Assembly: GCA_002716745.1 (NCBI GenBank)
Contig: PBBW01000005.1
Span: forward strand, 46,890 to 90,842
DNA: 43,953 nt
Direction of reading: 5' to 3'
From: Gammaproteobacteria bacterium
GTDB taxonomy: Bacteria > Pseudomonadota > Gammaproteobacteria > Magnimaribacterales > TMED112
The notes below the pieces were generated by a model. The model made no database searches, was not told where the DNA came from, and saw nothing but the letters and a program-made list of their open reading frames with translations. A program made the position numbers and the translations under genes. Positions within the stretch are counted from its first letter, which is position 1. Each line of letters starts with the position of its first letter. Shown one piece after another: positions 5,856-15,660 of this stretch.

Positions 5856-7412
5856 ATGAAAAAATTTATCTTAATTTTTTTTAGTTGGCTAAGTCTCATG
5901 GTGTTTTCTCACGATGCCTGGAAAGCCATAAAATTATCCGAAGAAATTGCTCATGCTCCATCAGTTCTTCCAGACAGAGTTGTACTTACATGGAACGATA
6001 ATCCAGCAACTACTCAGTCAGTTTCTTGGCGGACCGATACCTCTGTTATTAATGGCTATGCTCAAGTTGGGCTTGCTAATGCGAGTGGCAGGACAATGAA
6101 AACCTCAGAATTGAAAGCAGTAACAACACCATTTAAAAGTGATATTAACGATGCACATTATCACAATGTAAATTTTACAAACCTTAAGCCTAATACTTTA
6201 TATGCCTACCGAGTTGGTGATGGCGAGAACTGGACAGAATATTATCATTTCAAAACCGCAAACCTTAAACCAGAACCATTTAGTTTTATTTACTTTGGAG
6301 ATGCGCAAAATGAAGTCAAAACTCATTGGTCAAGGGTTTTTAGAGAGGCGTTTCGTGATGCGCCTAGAGCTGCATTTACCTTACATGCTGGCGATCTTGT
6401 AGATGAACATTATATGGATGCTCAGTGGGGTGAATGGCATCAAGCCCCAGATTGGGTTAACGGAACAATACCTGTCATTGCCACACCTGGAAATCATGAA
6501 TACCTTGATGATTCTCAACGCAAGAGAATTTGGAAAACTAAAAAAGAAAAAGAAGTAAAAGTAAAAATAGATGAATACAAACTACATGCTCCGGGTATAT
6601 TTAAAATTACTGTGGAGGATGAGCTTGACCAGAGAGGCACTCTATTCATTAAAGAAAGTGGCCAGATTGAATCCATTGATTCTGGAATAGAATTAATAAC
6701 TGGTTTTTCTCAAGCTGAATTAAAAGATGCATTAATATTGGGAGGAGGTGCTCCTCTTTATGATCGTCTTCAAAACCCAACTGGAACACCAATTTTGAGT
6801 ACCCATTGGCGCCCGCAATTTTCCTTTCCAATACAAGACGTGCCAAAAGAAAGCTTAAAAGAAACGGTTTACTACATTGATTATCAAGGTGTAAGATTTA
6901 TTTCATTAGATTCTAATACTGAGCTTGAGGCACAAATCCCTTGGTTACAAAAAGTACTTGAACAGAACTCCAATAAATGGACAATCGTTACGTTTCATCA
7001 TCCAATGTATTCACCTGCATCAGATCGTGACAATATTGAGTTAAGACAAGCTTGGAAGCCACTTTTTGATAAATATAAAGTCGACTTAATATTAAGCGGG
7101 CATGACCATACTTATTCTAGAACTGGTCTTGTTGATACCAAGAATTTAAAGAATGTTCCGACTGGTTATCAGCAGGCTTATGACCCTAACATTGGAACTG
7201 TAAATGTTGTCTCTGTGAGTGGTCCTAAAATGTATGAAATCACTAAAGGTAAATATGCTAAAACTTTTGCAGAGAATAAACAGCTTTACCAAATAATCGA
7301 TGTAGAAAACGATGCTCTGAGATATAGGGCATTTACAGCGATAGGCGAGCTATACGATGAATTTGTCCTCAAGAAAGTTGTTGATAAGCCAAATATTCTG
7401 ATAGAAAAATAA
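5856..7412 (+). CDS. Secreted purple acid phosphatase-like metallophosphoesterase with N-terminal fibronectin-like domain
   Basis: Signal peptide; WRTDTSVINGYAQVG; metal motifs YFGDAQ, HAGDLVDE, GNHEY, FHHPMYS, LSGHDHTYSR. Confidence 0.9.
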   Translation: MKKFILIFFSWLSLMVFSHDAWKAIKLSEEIAHAPSVLPDRVVLTWNDNPATTQSVSWRTDTSVINGYAQVGLANASGRTMKTSELKAVTTPFKSDINDAHYHNVNFTNLKPNTLYAYRVGDGENWTEYYHFKTANLKPEPFSFIYFGDAQNEVKTHWSRVFREAFRDAPRAAFTLHAGDLVDEHYMDAQWGEWHQAPDWVNGTIPVIATPGNHEYLDDSQRKRIWKTKKEKEVKVKIDEYKLHAPGIFKITVEDELDQRGTLFIKESGQIESIDSGIELITGFSQAELKDALILGGGAPLYDRLQNPTGTPILSTHWRPQFSFPIQDVPKESLKETVYYIDYQGVRFISLDSNTELEAQIPWLQKVLEQNSNKWTIVTFHHPMYSPASDRDNIELRQAWKPLFDKYKVDLILSGHDHTYSRTGLVDTKNLKNVPTGYQQAYDPNIGTVNVVSVSGPKMYEITKGKYAKTFAENKQLYQIIDVENDALRYRAFTAIGELYDEFVLKKVVDKPNILIEK

Positions 7413-7478
7413 TCTTTATCTTAGGCTTAATATGTGCTGCGAATATATCTATCTACATTACTTCTTTATAATTATTTA

Positions 7479-7721
7479 ATGAATAAATACTGGCAAGAAA
7501 ATCTAAGAATAATATTTGCACTTCTATCGATCTGGTTTTTGGTTTCCTTTGGATTTGGAATAATTTTTTCTGAGTGGCTTGACCAGTTCAAAATTGGTGG
7601 TTTCAAGCTTGGATTTTGGTTTGCTCAGCAAGGCAGTATTTTTTTCTTTGTGATACTTATTTTCGTTTATGTCCATCTAATGAATAAATTAGATGAAAAA
7701 TATAAGGACAAGGAAAAATGA
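7479..7721 (+). CDS. DUF4212-family small subunit associated with sodium:solute symporter
   Basis: ATG at 7479 within ORF 7434..7721; MNKYWQENLRIIFALLSIWFLVSFGFGI...GFWFAQQGSIFFFVILIFVYV; ATGA overlap with the symporter. Confidence 0.88.
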   Translation: MNKYWQENLRIIFALLSIWFLVSFGFGIIFSEWLDQFKIGGFKLGFWFAQQGSIFFFVILIFVYVHLMNKLDEKYKDKEK

Positions 7722-9466
7722 GCACTCAAGCATTAACTTATCTATTTGTTGGAATCACATTTGCTCTTTACATTGGAATTGCATTTTGGAGTAAAGCAAA
7801 AGATACGCGTGATTTCTATGTAGCTGGCAAAGGAGTAAGCCCACTTGCTAATGGTATGGCTACTGCAGCTGATTGGATGTCCGCTGCTTCATTTATTTCA
7901 ATCGCAGGAATAATTGCTTTTTCAGGTAGAGATGGCTCCGTTTACTTAATGGGTTGGACGGGAGGTTATGTTTTGCTAGCGCTTTTGCTTGCTCCATATC
8001 TAAGAAAATTTGGAAAATATACCGTCCCAGAGTTCATAGGCACAAGGTACTACTCCGATCTAGCAAGAATTGTAGCCGTGCTTTGTTTAATTTTTATCTC
8101 TTTTACCTATATAGCAGGACAGATGCGCGGCGTCGGGATTGTTTTCTCAAGGTTCCTTGAAGTTGATATTAATCTTGGGGTAATCATAGGGATGGTAATA
8201 GTTTTCTTCTATGCAGTTATGGGGGGAATGAAAGGTATTACTTATACTCAAGTAGCCCAATATTGTGTGTTAATTTTTGCTTATTTAGTTCCTGCAATTT
8301 TTATTTCTATTTTAATCACAGGTAATCCTGTTCCACAGCTTGGTTTTGGAAGCACTGTAAGTGGAAGCTCTGAATACATATTAGATAAATTAGATCGAAT
8401 TACTGAGGAACTTGGGTTTAATCCATATACTGAGAATACTAAAAGTACATTTGATGTGATCTGTATTACAGCGGCGCTAATGTTTGGAACTGCAGGACTT
8501 CCGCATGTAATTGTGAGATTTTTTACAGTACCAAAAGTTAAAGACGCAAGGAAGTCCGTTGGATATGCTTTAATCTGTATAGCACTTTTATTTACAACCG
8601 CTCCTGCTGTAGGTGCATTTGCAAGGGTAAATATTGCTGACTCCATCCAAGATACAAAATATGTAGAAGCGCCAGAATGGTTTAAAAATTGGGAAAACAT
8701 AGGTCTAGTTGCTTGGAAAGATAAAAATAATGATGGAGCAATGCAACTTTATCCAGGAAATGCTTTTGAAGAAATACAGCCTTCCTTTTCAGAAAAAGTG
8801 GGGCAGTATGGAGAGAGGGTTGTTACCAACAATATCAATGAGGATAGTAAAAATGAACTTTACATTGATAGAGATATTATGGTTCTTGCAAACCCAGAGA
8901 TTGCTAGCCTGCCACCGTGGGTATTTGCTCTAGTTGCTGCAGGTGCATTAGCAGCTGCTCTTTCAACTGCAGCAGGATTATTATTAGTAATTTCATCTTC
9001 AATTTCACATGATCTTATGAAAAAGACATTCAGACCAAATATTACAGAGAAACAAGAACTCCTTTATGCAAGAATTGCGGCAAGTGCTGCAATTTTAGTT
9101 GCAGGTTATTTTGGCATCAACCCACCAGGATTTGTAGCTCAAGTTGTTGCTTTGGCATTTGGTCTAGCAGCCTCAACCATATTCCCTGCATTATTAATGG
9201 GCATATTTTTTAAAGAGATTAATAAGGAAGGAGCAATACTTGGAATGGTGCTAGGTCTAGTTACGACATTGTCGTACATTATTTATTTTAAGTTTATATT
9301 CCCAGAATTAAACAACTCAGAATATTGGTTATTAGGTATTTCTCCTGAAGGATTTGGTGTAATTGGGATGCTTGTAAACTTTGCGACTGCCATAATTTGC
9401 CTTCAGGTGTTCTCAAAGCCACCTAGCAGTGTGACTAATTTGTTAAATTCAATCAGAAAACCCTAG
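7718..9466 (+). CDS. Sodium:solute symporter, VC_2705/ActP-like
   Basis: FYVAGKGVSPLANGMATAADWMSAASFISIAG; GGMKGITYTQVAQY; GTAGLPHVIVRFFTVP; coupled to a DUF4212 gene. Confidence 0.9.
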   Translation: MSTQALTYLFVGITFALYIGIAFWSKAKDTRDFYVAGKGVSPLANGMATAADWMSAASFISIAGIIAFSGRDGSVYLMGWTGGYVLLALLLAPYLRKFGKYTVPEFIGTRYYSDLARIVAVLCLIFISFTYIAGQMRGVGIVFSRFLEVDINLGVIIGMVIVFFYAVMGGMKGITYTQVAQYCVLIFAYLVPAIFISILITGNPVPQLGFGSTVSGSSEYILDKLDRITEELGFNPYTENTKSTFDVICITAALMFGTAGLPHVIVRFFTVPKVKDARKSVGYALICIALLFTTAPAVGAFARVNIADSIQDTKYVEAPEWFKNWENIGLVAWKDKNNDGAMQLYPGNAFEEIQPSFSEKVGQYGERVVTNNINEDSKNELYIDRDIMVLANPEIASLPPWVFALVAAGALAAALSTAAGLLLVISSSISHDLMKKTFRPNITEKQELLYARIAASAAILVAGYFGINPPGFVAQVVALAFGLAASTIFPALLMGIFFKEINKEGAILGMVLGLVTTLSYIIYFKFIFPELNNSEYWLLGISPEGFGVIGMLVNFATAIICLQVFSKPPSSVTNLLNSIRKP

Positions 9467-9489: not shown

Positions 9490-9525
9490 TCATAATTGAT
9501 TATAATCATAGTTTTGGTATAGTCT
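9490..9525 (+). promoter_or_regulatory. Candidate promoter with palindromic operator (Zur-like?) upstream of the His-rich small protein and TonB receptor
   Basis: Perfect 12-bp palindrome TGATTATAATCA at 9497..9508 overlapping a -35-like TTGATT (9496..9501); TATAGT -10-like at 9518..9523, 16-nt spacer. Confidence 0.45.
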
Positions 9526-9530
9526 GCCTT

Positions 9531-9797
9531 ATGTTTAATGCCCAACTAAAACTACTGGTTGCAATTTTCTTTGCTTCAGCCCTTAGCGCAGAGCCGTTGG
9601 TACATGATCACCATGATCATGATGAGGCTGTTAAAATTGAGTGCCTTGCATGTGAGAATTCTTTTTCATTTGAAATTACTGATACAACTAAAGAAACCTT
9701 TAGTCTACCTTTTTCTAATAAAAGCGTATTAATAGATCAAAAAATTGAATCAATTGAAGTTCCAATCTCCAATTCTAGAGCGCCTCCTAGAATTTAA
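9531..9797 (+). CDS. Small exported His-rich putative metal-associated protein
   Basis: ATG at 9531 in ORF 9483..9797; signal peptide then EPLVHDHHDHDEAVKIECLACENSF and C-terminal NSRAPPRI; directly upstream of ZnuD-like receptor. Confidence 0.7.
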   Translation: MFNAQLKLLVAIFFASALSAEPLVHDHHDHDEAVKIECLACENSFSFEITDTTKETFSLPFSNKSVLIDQKIESIEVPISNSRAPPRI

Positions 9798-9844
9798 GTT
9801 CTTTCACAAAATAATTTAATTTTTTTTAATAGGAGGTAATCAAA

Positions 9845-12148
9845 ATGAAAAAAATATTAACAGTTTTAATTTTTATGGCGACACTCAACTTAGTTGCCCA
9901 AGAAGTCGAAGAAGTAGTTGTTGTATCTTCACTTACAGATGCAAATGGCCAATTAAGTGAAATTGGCGATCCAATTCATGTGGTCAGTGGAGAAGATTTA
10001 GACGCATCGGCTACTCAAAGTTTAGGTGAGTCAATTGACGAATTACTTGGAGTATCATCTGTAGATTATGGTGCTGCAGTTGGCCAACCTGTTATTCGTG
10101 GTTTATTAGATGGTAGAGTCAAGATACTAAGAAATGGTCTTAGCGTTGCAGACGTAGCAGGTATGGGGGCAGATCACCTAAATGAAGTTGATCTTTTTAA
10201 TGTTCAACAAATCGAAATTATAAGAGGACCATCATCCTTGCTTTATTCAAAAGGTTCGATTGGTGGTGTTATAAATATCATTGACAATACTATTGCACAA
10301 CGGGACTTTGATTCACAAAAAGTTAGTCTTGGTCTTGAGGCTCAAACTGTAAATGAAGGTGATTCTAAAAATTTTTCTTATGAAAATAATTTTAATGGAA
10401 TAAATTTCAGCGTTTCTTACAAAGACTCACAATTTGGTAATTACGAAATACCTAATGGAGCAATCATTCATTCCGAAGATGAGCATGACGATCATGGCGA
10501 TGAAGATCATGGCGATGAGCACGACGAGCACGAAGAAGATATGTCTGTTTTAGCTAACTCAGATTTTGGATCTACCACTTCAAGAATTGGTGTTTCAAGA
10601 ACTGGTGACTGGGGCTACTTTGGAATTTCACTTGAGGATCAAGAAACTGTATATGGCATTCCTTTTCATGGTGATGAGCACGGTGATGAGCACGGTGATG
10701 AGCACGGTGATGAACATGGTGATGAGCACGGTGATGAGCATGAAGGAGAAAGAATTTACGCTTTTACTGACTCTCAAGCAGTGAATTTAAGAGGTGGATT
10801 CATTGTCAATAATAGTATGTTGAATGGCATTGATTATTTTTACAGAGATACAGACTATTCATTTTCTGAGCAGCATGCCGAAGAAGAAGGTCATGAAGAA
10901 GAAGGTCATGAAGACGAAGGTCATGACGATCATGGGCATGAAGAAGGACCAACAGTGTTTAATAATCAAGCACAAGAATTTGGTGCCATTTTTGATTTTG
11001 CTGTTTCTGGAAACGTAAACTCATCTAAAGTTATGGTGAATTATCTTGCAATGGATGAATCAATAGTAGGGCACGAAGCTTTTATGGATCCTGTTGAAAG
11101 TGAAAGTTTTAACATTGGATATTATGTTAGCAGAAACCTTCCTGGGGACTTTGACTTAGATTTAGGTTTTAGATATGACCAAATAAATAGAAAAGGTTCA
11201 GTAACTGAAGAACATCATGAGGAAGAAGGTCATGACGATCACGGTGACGAAGATCATGGCGATGAGCATGATGAAGACCATGAAGAAATGGAAGTAGAAT
11301 ACTTTGATAAAGACTTTGATGAATTAAGTTTTTCAGCAAGCCTCAATAAGCAATTAAATGATTCTATGGTGGTTAATTTTAGCTTTTCTAGTGTTGCAAA
11401 CGCACCATCAAGTACAGCAATGGCTATGAATGGACCGCACTTAGCTCGTGGCAGATTTGAAACTGGTGATGTAAACCTTTCAGCGGAGAGAGCTTCCAAC
11501 TTTGAAGGCACATTGTTTTATAATGATGGAGATTATTTTGGGCAATTTACTTTATTTCAAAATAGTATTGCTGATTATATTTATCTTCAAGACGAGTTAG
11601 AGCATCACGACGAGGATCATGGTGATGAAGATCATGATGAGCATGGTGATGAAGATCATGATGAGCATGGTGATGAGCACGGAAATTTAATCCATGCCGA
11701 TTTTCTTCAACAAGATGCTGATTTTAATGGTTACGAATTTGAATTTGGTAGAAGGTTTAAACTTGCGTCGGGAGAGCTAGAGGTAAGTTATGGTAGAGAT
11801 GTAGTGAATGGTGAGTTTTCTAACGGAGAAAATGTTCCAAGAATTGTCCCTGCAAGAAATCTTTACAATTTGTCATATGTTGGTGGGGATCTAAGTTTAA
11901 ATCTTACCCTTAAGGATGTAGAAGCTCAAAAAGACATTGGTGATGGTGAAACAGCCACTGATGGATATAAGATGCTTAATCTTTTAGCAATGAGAAATTT
12001 TAATCTTTCATCAGGCAATAATCTGAAAGTATCAGTATTTGCTAATAATATTCTCGATGAGGTTGGAAGAAATCATGCATCATATGTTAAAGATGAGGTC
12101 CCACTTCCGGGATTGAATTTTGGTGTCAAATTTAGACTAGATTTTTAA
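9845..12148 (+). CDS. TonB-dependent outer-membrane receptor, ZnuD-like (putative zinc receptor) with five His/Asp/Glu-rich segments
   Basis: Signal peptide; plug-domain motifs QPVIRGLLDGRVKILRNGLSVADVAGMGADHLNEVDLFNVQQIEIIRGPSSLLYSKGSIGGVINIID; HGDEHGDEH-type repeats; C-terminal LNFGVKFRLDF ending in F; SD AGGAGG upstream. Confidence 0.9.
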   Translation: MKKILTVLIFMATLNLVAQEVEEVVVVSSLTDANGQLSEIGDPIHVVSGEDLDASATQSLGESIDELLGVSSVDYGAAVGQPVIRGLLDGRVKILRNGLSVADVAGMGADHLNEVDLFNVQQIEIIRGPSSLLYSKGSIGGVINIIDNTIAQRDFDSQKVSLGLEAQTVNEGDSKNFSYENNFNGINFSVSYKDSQFGNYEIPNGAIIHSEDEHDDHGDEDHGDEHDEHEEDMSVLANSDFGSTTSRIGVSRTGDWGYFGISLEDQETVYGIPFHGDEHGDEHGDEHGDEHGDEHGDEHEGERIYAFTDSQAVNLRGGFIVNNSMLNGIDYFYRDTDYSFSEQHAEEEGHEEEGHEDEGHDDHGHEEGPTVFNNQAQEFGAIFDFAVSGNVNSSKVMVNYLAMDESIVGHEAFMDPVESESFNIGYYVSRNLPGDFDLDLGFRYDQINRKGSVTEEHHEEEGHDDHGDEDHGDEHDEDHEEMEVEYFDKDFDELSFSASLNKQLNDSMVVNFSFSSVANAPSSTAMAMNGPHLARGRFETGDVNLSAERASNFEGTLFYNDGDYFGQFTLFQNSIADYIYLQDELEHHDEDHGDEDHDEHGDEDHDEHGDEHGNLIHADFLQQDADFNGYEFEFGRRFKLASGELEVSYGRDVVNGEFSNGENVPRIVPARNLYNLSYVGGDLSLNLTLKDVEAQKDIGDGETATDGYKMLNLLAMRNFNLSSGNNLKVSVFANNILDEVGRNHASYVKDEVPLPGLNFGVKFRLDF
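10670..10741 (+). repeat. In-frame tandem repeat, six copies of a 12-bp unit (GGTGATGAGCAC), encoding GDEH repeats
   Basis: Direct reading; units 4 and 6 vary only at synonymous positions (GAACAT, GAGCAT). Confidence 0.97.
11621..11680 (+). repeat. In-frame tandem repeat, two perfect 24-bp copies (GGTGATGAAGATCATGATGAGCAT) plus a 12-bp GGTGATGAGCAC unit
   Basis: Direct reading within the TonB receptor. Confidence 0.95.
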
Positions 12149-12242: not shown

Positions 12243-14825
12243 ATGAAAGTGAACTATTTAAAAACCATACTTTTTGCATTCTTTTTTTATGGTTCTTTCG
12301 TTTCAACTGCTGATAAAGATATAGAAGAAGTACTGGTTACAGGTTCTTATATTAAAGATGCGGTAGATTCCATAGGCCCCCTAGAAGTCTTGTCAGAAGA
12401 CGATTTTATATCACTCAATATAACGAATTTAGCTGAGATTAGTAAATACTTAAATATTGCATCAGGGTCACATTTTCAATCAAATACTTTGGGCGGTGTT
12501 GATCAAGGCATGTCATCAATTACATTGAGAGGCTTAGATCATGCATCTACTCTGTTACTTATTAATTCAAAACGACATACTTTTGCTGGCACTCCTTCCA
12601 ATGAGGGCGAAGGGTATATAGATTTAAATATTATTCCTGAAATCTCTTTTAAGAGAATTGAGATTTTAAAGGAAGGTGCAACTTCGTTATATGGATCGGA
12701 TGCAGTGGCAGGAGTTGTAAATTTTATAACACATAAAGATTTTAAGGGTTTGAAGATTCGTTTTGGAGACCAAACAACAACAAACTATAATCAAAAAGAC
12801 CAAAATATAGGTCTGCTTTATGGACAAGAGTTAAATAATTGGGATTTAGTTTTTGCTGCAAACCTACTTGATAGGGCACCATTATCTGCTTCAGAAATCC
12901 CAAATATTGCAGAGTTAGCATTAAGCGGTCTTGGAAACACATTTATTACTACTGCAGCTGATGAAATAACAGAAGGAAGATACGAAGGTGTCTATGAAGC
13001 AAATCAAATAGTTCCTGATCCAAATTGTGTTGAGAATGGTGGTATTTTGCAGGGGTTTTGTAGATTTCTTTATGGGACAAGATTCAATATAGTTAATACT
13101 GAAGACCACTCAAAATTTTATTTGAATCTGAGCAATGATATTCATAACCTTTCATTAATTGCCTCAAATGTCAGAGTAATCGATAATCCTCAGTCACCCT
13201 CTTATCCTGCGTTACCCTACTTAACAAGACTAATTCAACCAGGTGAAGGATCCTCACCATTCAATACACCAGTAAAATGGCGAGGCCGGCCATTAGGCTC
13301 ACAATATGCTTCCCCATTTTCACCAAAAGACATAAAACAATTTCACTTAAATTATTCGTATTTTACAAAAATAGAAAATATTGATTTTGAATTTTCTTTG
13401 TCTACAAGTGAGCATCAGAACAAACACAACAGACCAGATATTATTGATTCAAGATTTCAAAGCGCAATGCAAGGCAGTGGCGGCCCATCACAGAACGAAA
13501 CATGGAATATTTTTGAACCAGAGCTAAATAGTCAATCATTAATTGATTATGTAAGAGGAGCCGAAATTTCAAATAAAACTGGAAGCTTATCTGTCTTTGA
13601 TGTAATTGGGAGAACAGAACTATTTAATTTTGATTTTGCATTTGGCTCACAAATTAGTGATGAAAAATTAGATATAAGCTATAACGAGATAGCTCGTGCT
13701 GAATTTGATCGTGATGGAAAAATAATTAAAACAGCAGATCTTTTTTTCCTTGGCGGTGGAAAAAATGTTTCTACAAATAGAAACAAAGTAGCATTCTTTT
13801 TAGAGGGAAGGACAAATTTAGTAGAAGTCATTGATATAAGTTTGTCAGGCAGATATGAAGAGTCAAAAAATTACTCGTCTTTTGATCCAAAGGTTTCTAT
13901 AAAATCAACATTTAATGAAAATATTTTTTTAAGGGGTTCATTTGGTTCTTCTTTTTCGATGCCATCAATGGCTCAAATGTTTTCAAGTAATATAAATCTT
14001 GGAAGTGTAAGAGATATTGAAGGTAACATCTTTGTTCGACAGGCTCAGATTGGCAACCCTGATCTCAAGCCCTCCACAGCTGACAATTCAAATTTTGGAG
14101 TTGTTCTTGATTATAAAAACAGAGTTTTTACGATCGACTACTGGTTAATAGATTATAAAAATAGAGTTGAATCGCAAAGCTCACAGGCATTGCTTTTAAG
14201 CGATCCGTTTGGACCAAGTATTACTAGAAATGACGAAGGGGAATTAATTGGAGTTACTACAACTTACTTTAACGAAACGACAACAAAACTTTCTGGTTTT
14301 GATTTTTCATACGACGAAAATTTAATTCTGGAAGACTATGGGAAGATTAATCTCTCTGTAAAAGGTACAAGTTTTATTGAATTTTTAACTCCTGAAATTG
14401 GAGCAAATCCGTCTTCAAATCTAGTTAATAGGGTAGGAAGGTTTAATTTTGATGCGAATACACACTCTATACCAAAGTACAGAATCAATTCATTTCTAAA
14501 TTGGAATTATGATAACTATGAGGTTGCCTTAAATACAAGATTTATTGATGGCTATATAAATGAAAGAAGTATTCCTGAGAGTGCATTGAATCAAGGCTAT
14601 AAGAATAAAATTGATAATTTCTTGGTTTTTGATTTAACTTTTAGACAAAACTTCCCACAATTTTTTGACAATATGAATTTTAAAACTTCATTCTCAATAA
14701 TTAATATTCTTGATGAGCAGCCACCAAAAATCTACGATGCGCCTGATTTTAGTTTTGACACAAGAGTTCATGACCCTAGAGGGAGATTAATTAATATTCA
14801 ATTTGAACTCGCCCCAAAGAATTAG
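12243..14825 (+). CDS. TonB-dependent outer-membrane receptor
   Basis: Plug-domain IEEVLVTGSYIKD...ITLRGLDHASTLLLINSKRH...FKRIEILKEGATSLYGSDAVAGVVNFIT; C-terminal beta-barrel. Confidence 0.92.
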   Translation: MKVNYLKTILFAFFFYGSFVSTADKDIEEVLVTGSYIKDAVDSIGPLEVLSEDDFISLNITNLAEISKYLNIASGSHFQSNTLGGVDQGMSSITLRGLDHASTLLLINSKRHTFAGTPSNEGEGYIDLNIIPEISFKRIEILKEGATSLYGSDAVAGVVNFITHKDFKGLKIRFGDQTTTNYNQKDQNIGLLYGQELNNWDLVFAANLLDRAPLSASEIPNIAELALSGLGNTFITTAADEITEGRYEGVYEANQIVPDPNCVENGGILQGFCRFLYGTRFNIVNTEDHSKFYLNLSNDIHNLSLIASNVRVIDNPQSPSYPALPYLTRLIQPGEGSSPFNTPVKWRGRPLGSQYASPFSPKDIKQFHLNYSYFTKIENIDFEFSLSTSEHQNKHNRPDIIDSRFQSAMQGSGGPSQNETWNIFEPELNSQSLIDYVRGAEISNKTGSLSVFDVIGRTELFNFDFAFGSQISDEKLDISYNEIARAEFDRDGKIIKTADLFFLGGGKNVSTNRNKVAFFLEGRTNLVEVIDISLSGRYEESKNYSSFDPKVSIKSTFNENIFLRGSFGSSFSMPSMAQMFSSNINLGSVRDIEGNIFVRQAQIGNPDLKPSTADNSNFGVVLDYKNRVFTIDYWLIDYKNRVESQSSQALLLSDPFGPSITRNDEGELIGVTTTYFNETTTKLSGFDFSYDENLILEDYGKINLSVKGTSFIEFLTPEIGANPSSNLVNRVGRFNFDANTHSIPKYRINSFLNWNYDNYEVALNTRFIDGYINERSIPESALNQGYKNKIDNFLVFDLTFRQNFPQFFDNMNFKTSFSIINILDEQPPKIYDAPDFSFDTRVHDPRGRLINIQFELAPKN

Positions 14826-14841
14826 GGATATAATATCTAAC

Positions 14842-15660
14842 ATGAAATTCGTTCTAGTTTTATTTATCCTAATACTTTATATAAAACCTACTAAGGCAAA
14901 TGAAAAAGACCATGAATTGTTAATGGCAACATTATTTGTTCAATCGTCGGCTGAATTTTACGCAAATTCAAAATCCTTATACAGTTCTGCTCAACAAAAT
15001 CTTCTAGACGTGCTTGAAAACAAAAATCATACTGCTGCCCTTGAGCAAATGGGAAATTTTCAAGACAAACCACCAGCAATTATTTTAGATGTCGATCAAA
15101 CAGTCTTAGATAATAGCGCCTATCAAGCAAGGCTAATAAAAAATAATTCTTCTTATCCTAATGGTTGGGTAAGTTGGGCAAAAGAGGAGAAAGCTGAATT
15201 TCTTCCAGGCGCACTAGAATTTATAAAATTTGCTCAATCAAAAGGCGTAGAAATTTTCTTCGTAACGAACAGAGTTATAGAAATTGAAAATGCAACCCTT
15301 AGTAATTATGAAAAGCTAGGTCTAAAACTTTCATCACGAGTTGATCATATATTATCTAGAGGAGAGAATGGATGGGATTCAAATAAGACTTCAAGGAGGG
15401 AACTAGTTGCAAAAGATTACAGAATATTAATGATGTTTGGCGATAACTTAGGAGATTTTGTTGATATTAAAGATAATTTATTAACACCTCAGAAAAGAGT
15501 AGAAATCACAAAAAAATATGATGATTTTTGGGGTATTTCTTGGTTTATGTTTTCAAACCCAATGTATGGAGCATGGGAGGGAGCTATTATCGATTTTGAT
15601 TATTCAGTTCCTAGAAATAAAAAATTAGAGATGAAAGAATTATCTCTTGATGCAAAATAA
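14842..15660 (+). CDS. HAD-superfamily acid phosphatase / 5'-nucleotidase, lipoprotein e(P4)-like family, with signal peptide
   Basis: ATG at 14842 within ORF 14803..15660; AIILDVDQTVLDNSAYQ, FFVTNR, MMFGDNLGDF HAD motifs. Confidence 0.85.
   Translation: MKFVLVLFILILYIKPTKANEKDHELLMATLFVQSSAEFYANSKSLYSSAQQNLLDVLENKNHTAALEQMGNFQDKPPAIILDVDQTVLDNSAYQARLIKNNSSYPNGWVSWAKEEKAEFLPGALEFIKFAQSKGVEIFFVTNRVIEIENATLSNYEKLGLKLSSRVDHILSRGENGWDSNKTSRRELVAKDYRILMMFGDNLGDFVDIKDNLLTPQKRVEITKKYDDFWGISWFMFSNPMYGAWEGAIIDFDYSVPRNKKLEMKELSLDAK

Follow-up and report, generated by a model that had tools for sequence, protein, structure and literature searches.

The window, as the whole 43,953-nucleotide stretch of DNA analysed here is called, encodes at 9845-12148 (+) a TonB-dependent receptor of 767 aa that resembles the zinc receptor ZnuD, as judged from the ORF list, Pfam, PDB and fold matches and a structural model. 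A Shine-Dalgarno-like AGGAGG can be read 5' of its start on the same strand (9832-9837). Also on the forward strand lies a gene for a secreted-looking protein of 88 aa (9531-9797), recognised by alignment and gene neighbourhoods and carrying an HDHHDH motif, a CxxC motif and a C-terminal SRAPP; it is referred to below as the RAPP gene. The two genes are separated by 47 nt and are likely cotranscribed. The RAPP protein belongs to no family in Pfam or NCBIfam, and in the alignment its sequence is poorly conserved outside the motifs. In most lineages of the SAR86 order a RAPP gene stands 5' of the receptor, and a gene with the RAPP motif was found upstream in 66 of 80 contig loci, those of Alphaproteobacteria included. 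A perfect 12-bp palindrome, TGATTATAATCA (9497-9508), is located 22 nt 5' of the RAPP gene ATG. Measured against the 17-mer used below, this palindrome does not count as a Zur box, and it could be due to chance.

Immediately upstream of the locus (7434-9466, +) a VC_2705-type sodium/solute symporter and its small DUF4212 subunit are encoded, a pair shared with the genome G008 but not with most relatives. A second TonB-dependent receptor of 860 aa, devoid of His-rich segments, is encoded 3' of the ZnuD-like one (12243-14825, +), and its homologue occupies the same place in 12 of the 27 contexts compared. A purple-acid-phosphatase-like gene (5856-7412) lies upstream of the locus and an e(P4)-type acid phosphatase gene (14803-15660) downstream, and in sister genomes (L051, L053, L060) an alkaline-phosphatase-like gene adjoins the phosphatase genes. 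Alkaline phosphatase is often a zinc enzyme.

The plug (PF07715) and barrel (PF00593) domains of the receptor were both recognised over the Pfam cut-offs. The best NCBIfam match is ZnuD (NF038289), with 158 bits against a cut-off of 950; as this score is below the cut-off of a model that spans a narrower set, the protein is termed ZnuD-like and not ZnuD proper. Neisseria ZnuD heads the PDB matches by single sequence (6.1e-32), by profile (9.5e-61) and by a more diverse full-length profile (6e-150). It is also the best Foldseek match of the receptor model (3.9e-40), 13 orders of magnitude ahead of the next family, the copper receptor OprC (2e-27). The zinc ligands of ZnuD are D99, H100, E340 and H499 (PMC4557270); by our own count, the chain numbering of the alignment runs 14 ahead of these ligand numbers. 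All four have counterparts in the aligned receptor: D110-H111 in the plug (10172-10177, +) correspond to D99-H100, E342 (10868-10870, +) to E340 and H532 (11438-11440, +) to H499, and each of these residues is identical in 66 of 66 relatives. Like the ZnuD of Neisseria meningitidis (PDB 4RDR, 4RDT, 4RVW; PMC4557270), the receptor is TonB-dependent with a modelled barrel of 22 strands; when structurally aligned, the two proteins are about 21% identical. Judged by sequence and model, it is a divergent, distant ZnuD, related best to ZnuD among the solved TonB receptors. The first-pass annotation, which had called the receptor ZnuD-like, is thus backed by sequence, fold and the four zinc ligands, and the kinship check that it had proposed led to ZnuD and not to receptors for an unrelated ligand. 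Unlike ZnuD, the receptor is preceded by a RAPP gene, and no ZnuABC was found in its genome.

The same annotation had pointed to five His/Asp/Glu-rich strings between 10465 and 11690; all of them occur exactly in the single ORF 9845-12148, and the span fits. From sequence and model the segments were delimited, all on the forward strand, as S1 (residues 211-232, 10475-10540) in loop L2, S2 (residues 275-302, 10667-10750) in L3, S3 (residues 343-368, 10871-10948) in L4, directly after the ligand E342, S4 (residues 455-483, 11207-11293) in L6 and S5 (residues 584-613, 11594-11683) in L8. Of the 40 His residues of the mature receptor, 33 lie in these segments. Shuffling of the mature receptor gave at least one such segment in 24 of 2000 shuffles, against the five observed, and none of the other window ORFs of at least 80 codons has a His/Asp/Glu segment of this kind.

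AlphaFold2, run on an alignment of 66 sequences, produced a barrel of 22 strands with a pLDDT of 77.8 and a pTM of 0.81. The pLDDT falls below 50 at the N-terminal residues 13-29 and 31-41 and at 210-230, 278-300, 347-364, 460-479 and 587-609; besides the N-terminal region, the low-confidence stretches all lie within or just beside S1-S5. In TonB receptors generally, the N-terminus of the barrel is periplasmic. Sidedness was accordingly read from strand order, not from coordinates, with strands 1-2, 3-4 and so on joined outside the cell. In this model the five segments are flexible extracellular loops, as had been proposed from the sequence, and not periplasmic turns. In the alignment S2 coincides with cluster 1 of ZnuD loop 3, so that the His/Asp-rich loop 3 of ZnuD has its counterpart in S2, and loop 3 is the place of the peripheral metal sites of ZnuD (PMC4557270). 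The two described His/Asp clusters of ZnuD are both in loop 3, whereas the five segments of the receptor are spread over L2, L3, L4, L6 and L8.

The window comes from a genome of the SAR86 order (G000; 1.12 Mb, 88.5% complete), one of the most abundant groups of uncultured bacteria in the surface ocean. The receptor search gave at least a weak match in 61 of 61 genomes of the order, a figure that includes unrelated TonB receptors, and a strong match in most. Segments are found at the same five places, four to five of them in most genera of the order, while zero to two are present in genera g4, g7 and g14 of family f4, in g2 of f2 and in some members of g9 and g6. A scan of genome contigs also detected the receptor in SAR92, Porticoccaceae, Halieaceae, Woeseiaceae and OCS116/PS1 Alphaproteobacteria, mostly with four to five segments; more distant homologues have zero to three. 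The initial view that so many segments in one barrel are exceptional was not borne out, as four to five are usual in this marine receptor family. SAR92 and Porticoccaceae, most of which also have four to five segments, keep the ABC-3 permease, and the idea that the segment number is a response to ZnuABC loss was therefore rejected.

The DNA of two segments offers a clue to their origin. The DNA of S2 contains 5.9 copies of a 12-bp unit (10670-10740, 93% match) and that of S5 contains 2.5 copies of a 24-bp unit (11618-11676, 100% match); since both are near-perfect tandem repeats, these segments have probably grown by repeat slippage. A receptor that transports zinc could bear loops that are slippage-prone, acidic, low-complexity inserts, serving for example in escape from phages or predators, with His merely carried along. 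Consistent with such inserts are the repeats themselves, the segment lengths, which range from 1 to 53 residues across 66 sequences, and the several lineages nearly without segments, and the His-rich loop of Vibrio cholerae ZrgA adds binding sites and yet is dispensable (PMC9820375). Nevertheless, the five positions are kept among orthologues despite the repeat nature of the DNA, and the share of His in the segments is steadily high (a median of roughly a quarter across the 66 sequences) in lineages of two classes, whereas few His residues occur elsewhere in the protein (median 7). With S2 standing at the position of the peripheral metal sites of ZnuD, we regard the insert explanation as unlikely and prefer metal-binding loops. 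A phmmer search with the loop region alone returned chance matches only.

As for the metal, gene neighbourhoods in relatives are informative. Among distant homologues, the RAPP gene and the receptor stand beside znuABC in one locus (L221) and the receptor beside zur-znuACB in another (L220). Elsewhere a HisI paralogue and COG0523 are nearby, with COG0523 also directly downstream (L217), or a DUF1826-MerC-COG0523 group is found in the vicinity (L213). Zur clusters are known to include COG0523 proteins, HisI paralogues and DUF1826, and the Zur-regulated clusters with COG0523 and DUF1826 contain outer-membrane receptors (PMC2770081). By gene neighbourhood, the distant receptor relatives stand in clusters of this type; unlike those Zur-regulated clusters, most of SAR86 is without Zur.

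The Zur site predicted for zrg of Vibrio parahaemolyticus includes GTGTTATATTATAACAC (PMC9817125), and this 17-mer was used as the search motif for Zur boxes. It occurs exactly before the operon in SAR86 MED-G82 (L148:5652-5668), where none was expected by chance, and with 16 of 17 positions before the operon of L009 (genome G046). Matches at 14-15 of 17 positions were found in L015, L128, L191, L153, L159 and L008 and also in the four loci L213, L217, L220 and L221, against a background of one match at this level in about 1.05 Mb of the window's genome; the window itself contains no Zur box by this search. Only three genomes of the SAR86 order (G043, G046, G055) encode a full second Fur-family protein, whose best NCBIfam match is Zur, below the cut-off, and all three have a Zur box before the operon. 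The single Fur-family protein of the window's genome is Fur, over the cut-off.

Zinc, as the first-pass annotation had suggested, is most likely the metal of the receptor, given the znuABC, zur and COG0523 neighbours and the Zur boxes in relatives. The alternative that the substrate is copper, nickel, cobalt or haem draws on the ability of His/Asp/Glu loops to bind many metals, on OprC as the second fold match, on the weak scores of haem models on the receptor, and on one family of the order in which the operon follows cytochrome-oxidase assembly genes, including one for an SCO1-like protein. This alternative appears very improbable, however, in view of the four of four ZnuD zinc ligands, the distance between ZnuD and OprC in the fold search and the zinc-linked neighbours and Zur boxes. 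Copper uptake linked to cytochrome oxidase and SCO1 was dropped, since the linkage is confined to one family.

The inner-membrane systems expected to accept zinc were missing from the order: among its 61 genomes, ZnuA and ZIP were each found in 0, with positive controls detected, ABC-3 (ZnuB) gave one marginal match, and Zur was almost absent. ABC-3 is present in SAR92 and other relatives. In the window's genome, for which 88.5% completeness has to be kept in mind, small home-made profiles detected no ZnuA, ZnuB or ZrgA. Pfam analysis of its 121 predicted proteins with at least three membrane segments gave MerC, MgtE, PHO4 and FecCD as the metal-capable families among the matches listed; for the longest membrane proteins this refers to the best 25 of 38 families, among which others could be hidden. 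The FecCD permease was rejected as a zinc importer because its neighbours resemble genes of a haem or B12 ABC system. The surface ocean is extremely poor in zinc (PMC4771312), and the literature searched did not cover how SAR86 obtains it.

MerC (PF03203) was detected over the cut-off in 51 of 61 genomes of the order and in 31 of the 34 best ones. In the window's genome its gene (G000:C2:53013-53348) is not linked to the receptor. Elsewhere, it lies close downstream of the receptor (L049, L058, L067, L119, L131, L138, L144, L157, L158, L159), directly upstream of the RAPP gene in Alphaproteobacteria (L125, L130, L145, L155), or after a Zur-like regulator together with DUF1826, COG0523 or ZrgA (L228, L230, L234). 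A Zur-box-like site (14 of 17) was found 42 nt before MerC in L231. The invariant residues of the protein (C18, H21, C22, E43, H46, H68, H114, C121, C126, H129) are largely possible metal ligands and would suit metal transfer. The MerC of a SAR86 relative was modelled with four helices, and Foldseek found no significant match for this model. The genes beside SAR86 MerC differ between genomes; by neighbour reading, no mer gene was recognised among them.

MerC owes its name to mercury resistance. Zinc, cadmium and mercury form one chemical group, group 12. The mer-operon MerC, also a PF03203 member, is an inner-membrane Hg(II) influx transporter whose expression in plants raised cadmium accumulation (PMC6416403). 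SAR86 MerC shares with it the four predicted helices and conserved Cys and His; unlike it, MerC is linked to Zur, COG0523, ZrgA, the RAPP gene and the receptor in several lineages. We found no relevant paper on MerC in zinc uptake. In a sample of the class, MerC and ABC-3 overlapped in 0 of 16 receptor-bearing genomes, weak ABC-3 matches being uncounted (Fisher p 0.019), and 5 of 30 named genomes had both (p 0.23); the lineages are not independent in these statistics. The five genomes rule out strict exclusion, and the replacement of ABC-3 by MerC is therefore a tendency, not a rule.

Because ZnuA, ZIP and, bar one marginal match, ZnuB are absent from the order, MerC is most likely the zinc importer of the inner membrane. 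It is less probable, yet a serious contender, that the outer-membrane part holds while zinc crosses the inner membrane through PHO4/PiT, MgtE or an unrecognised ABC system, MerC being devoted to mercury or thiol-metal traffic. Two PHO4 proteins and one MgtE are encoded in the window's genome, further families may be hidden among the longest membrane proteins, and MerC was not found in 10 of 61 genomes, three of which belong to the 34 best. Against this stand the occurrence of MerC within zinc operons of several lineages from two classes, the Zur-box-like site before it, its invariant Cys, His and Glu residues, its reported handling of other group 12 metals (PMC6416403) and the lack of a mer operon recognised by neighbour reading beside SAR86 MerC.

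Taken together, we favour a divergent-ZnuD zinc receptor whose loops capture the metal, with RAPP holding it and MerC importing it, and give this whole explanation a probability of roughly 0.7. Zn(II), bare or weakly complexed, would be gathered near the mouth of the barrel by the five His/Asp/Glu loops on the outer face. The loops would raise the local zinc concentration and feed the buried D110/H111/E342/H532 site, and TonB-driven plug movement would let zinc go into the periplasm. There, the RAPP protein with its HDHHDH and CxxC motifs would probably hold or buffer zinc, which a MerC-family importer would take across the inner membrane. Computation establishes the receptor family, the topology of the loops, the conserved ligands, the partner gene, the zinc-linked neighbourhoods and Zur boxes of relatives, and the lack of ZnuABC and ZIP and scarcity of Zur in the order, whereas zinc binding by the loops and their aid in capture, the zinc-holding role of the RAPP protein and the importer role of MerC are inferred. 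Lineages of the order with zero to two segments are equally without ZnuABC, from which it follows that the loops are not required; with the dispensable ZrgA loop and the nearly segmentless SAR86 genera, the capture role is likely an aid and not a necessity. The original picture of an extracellular zinc brush stands in part, as the receptor is ZnuD-like, the segments are modelled as extracellular and zinc is the most likely metal, while its tuning to very low zinc finds no support in those lineages.

The route without ZnuABC is a more interesting result than the segment brush, and the absence of ZnuABC and Zur, together with the partner gene that the first-pass annotation had left unmentioned, is the greater surprise. 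Whether SAR86 and other marine lineages share a zinc route independent of ZnuABC and ZIP, made up of the receptor, RAPP and a MerC importer, Zur-controlled in some and with Zur lost in most SAR86, seems to us evenly poised. Such a route would resemble Vibrio ZrgA/ZrgABCDE, a Zur-regulated zinc import with a His-rich component that works beside or instead of ZnuABC (PMC9820375, PMC9817125), and in Luminiphilus a ZrgA homologue follows MerC. ZrgABCDE is an ABC system, unlike the route proposed here, and in contrast to Vibrio no ZrgA was found in the window's genome with the home-made profile. For SAR86, the proposal names a receptor, a conserved partner outside Pfam and NCBIfam families and an inner-membrane candidate, and MerC proteins outside mer operons gain a likely job. 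If true, the MerC family, known until now for mercury, includes an inner-membrane zinc importer. The receptor family is also a natural series, from zero to five loops, for the function of His-rich loops in zinc receptors.

In a quick tree, the alphaproteobacterial receptors group in a single supported clade nested among the gammaproteobacterial sequences, and this nesting suggests transfer of the gene. The window's receptor shares 75-79% identity with those of two genomes of its genus and about 50% with most others of the genus, and the same tree places it beside SAR92 sequences with a support of 85, which is not strong; exchange of the receptor within marine Gammaproteobacteria is possible. 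In the receptor of G314 (L218), a distant homologue, a single loop (residues 264-326) accommodates one His/Asp segment of 63 aa (DDDHDDHDDDHDDH...) in place of five shorter segments.
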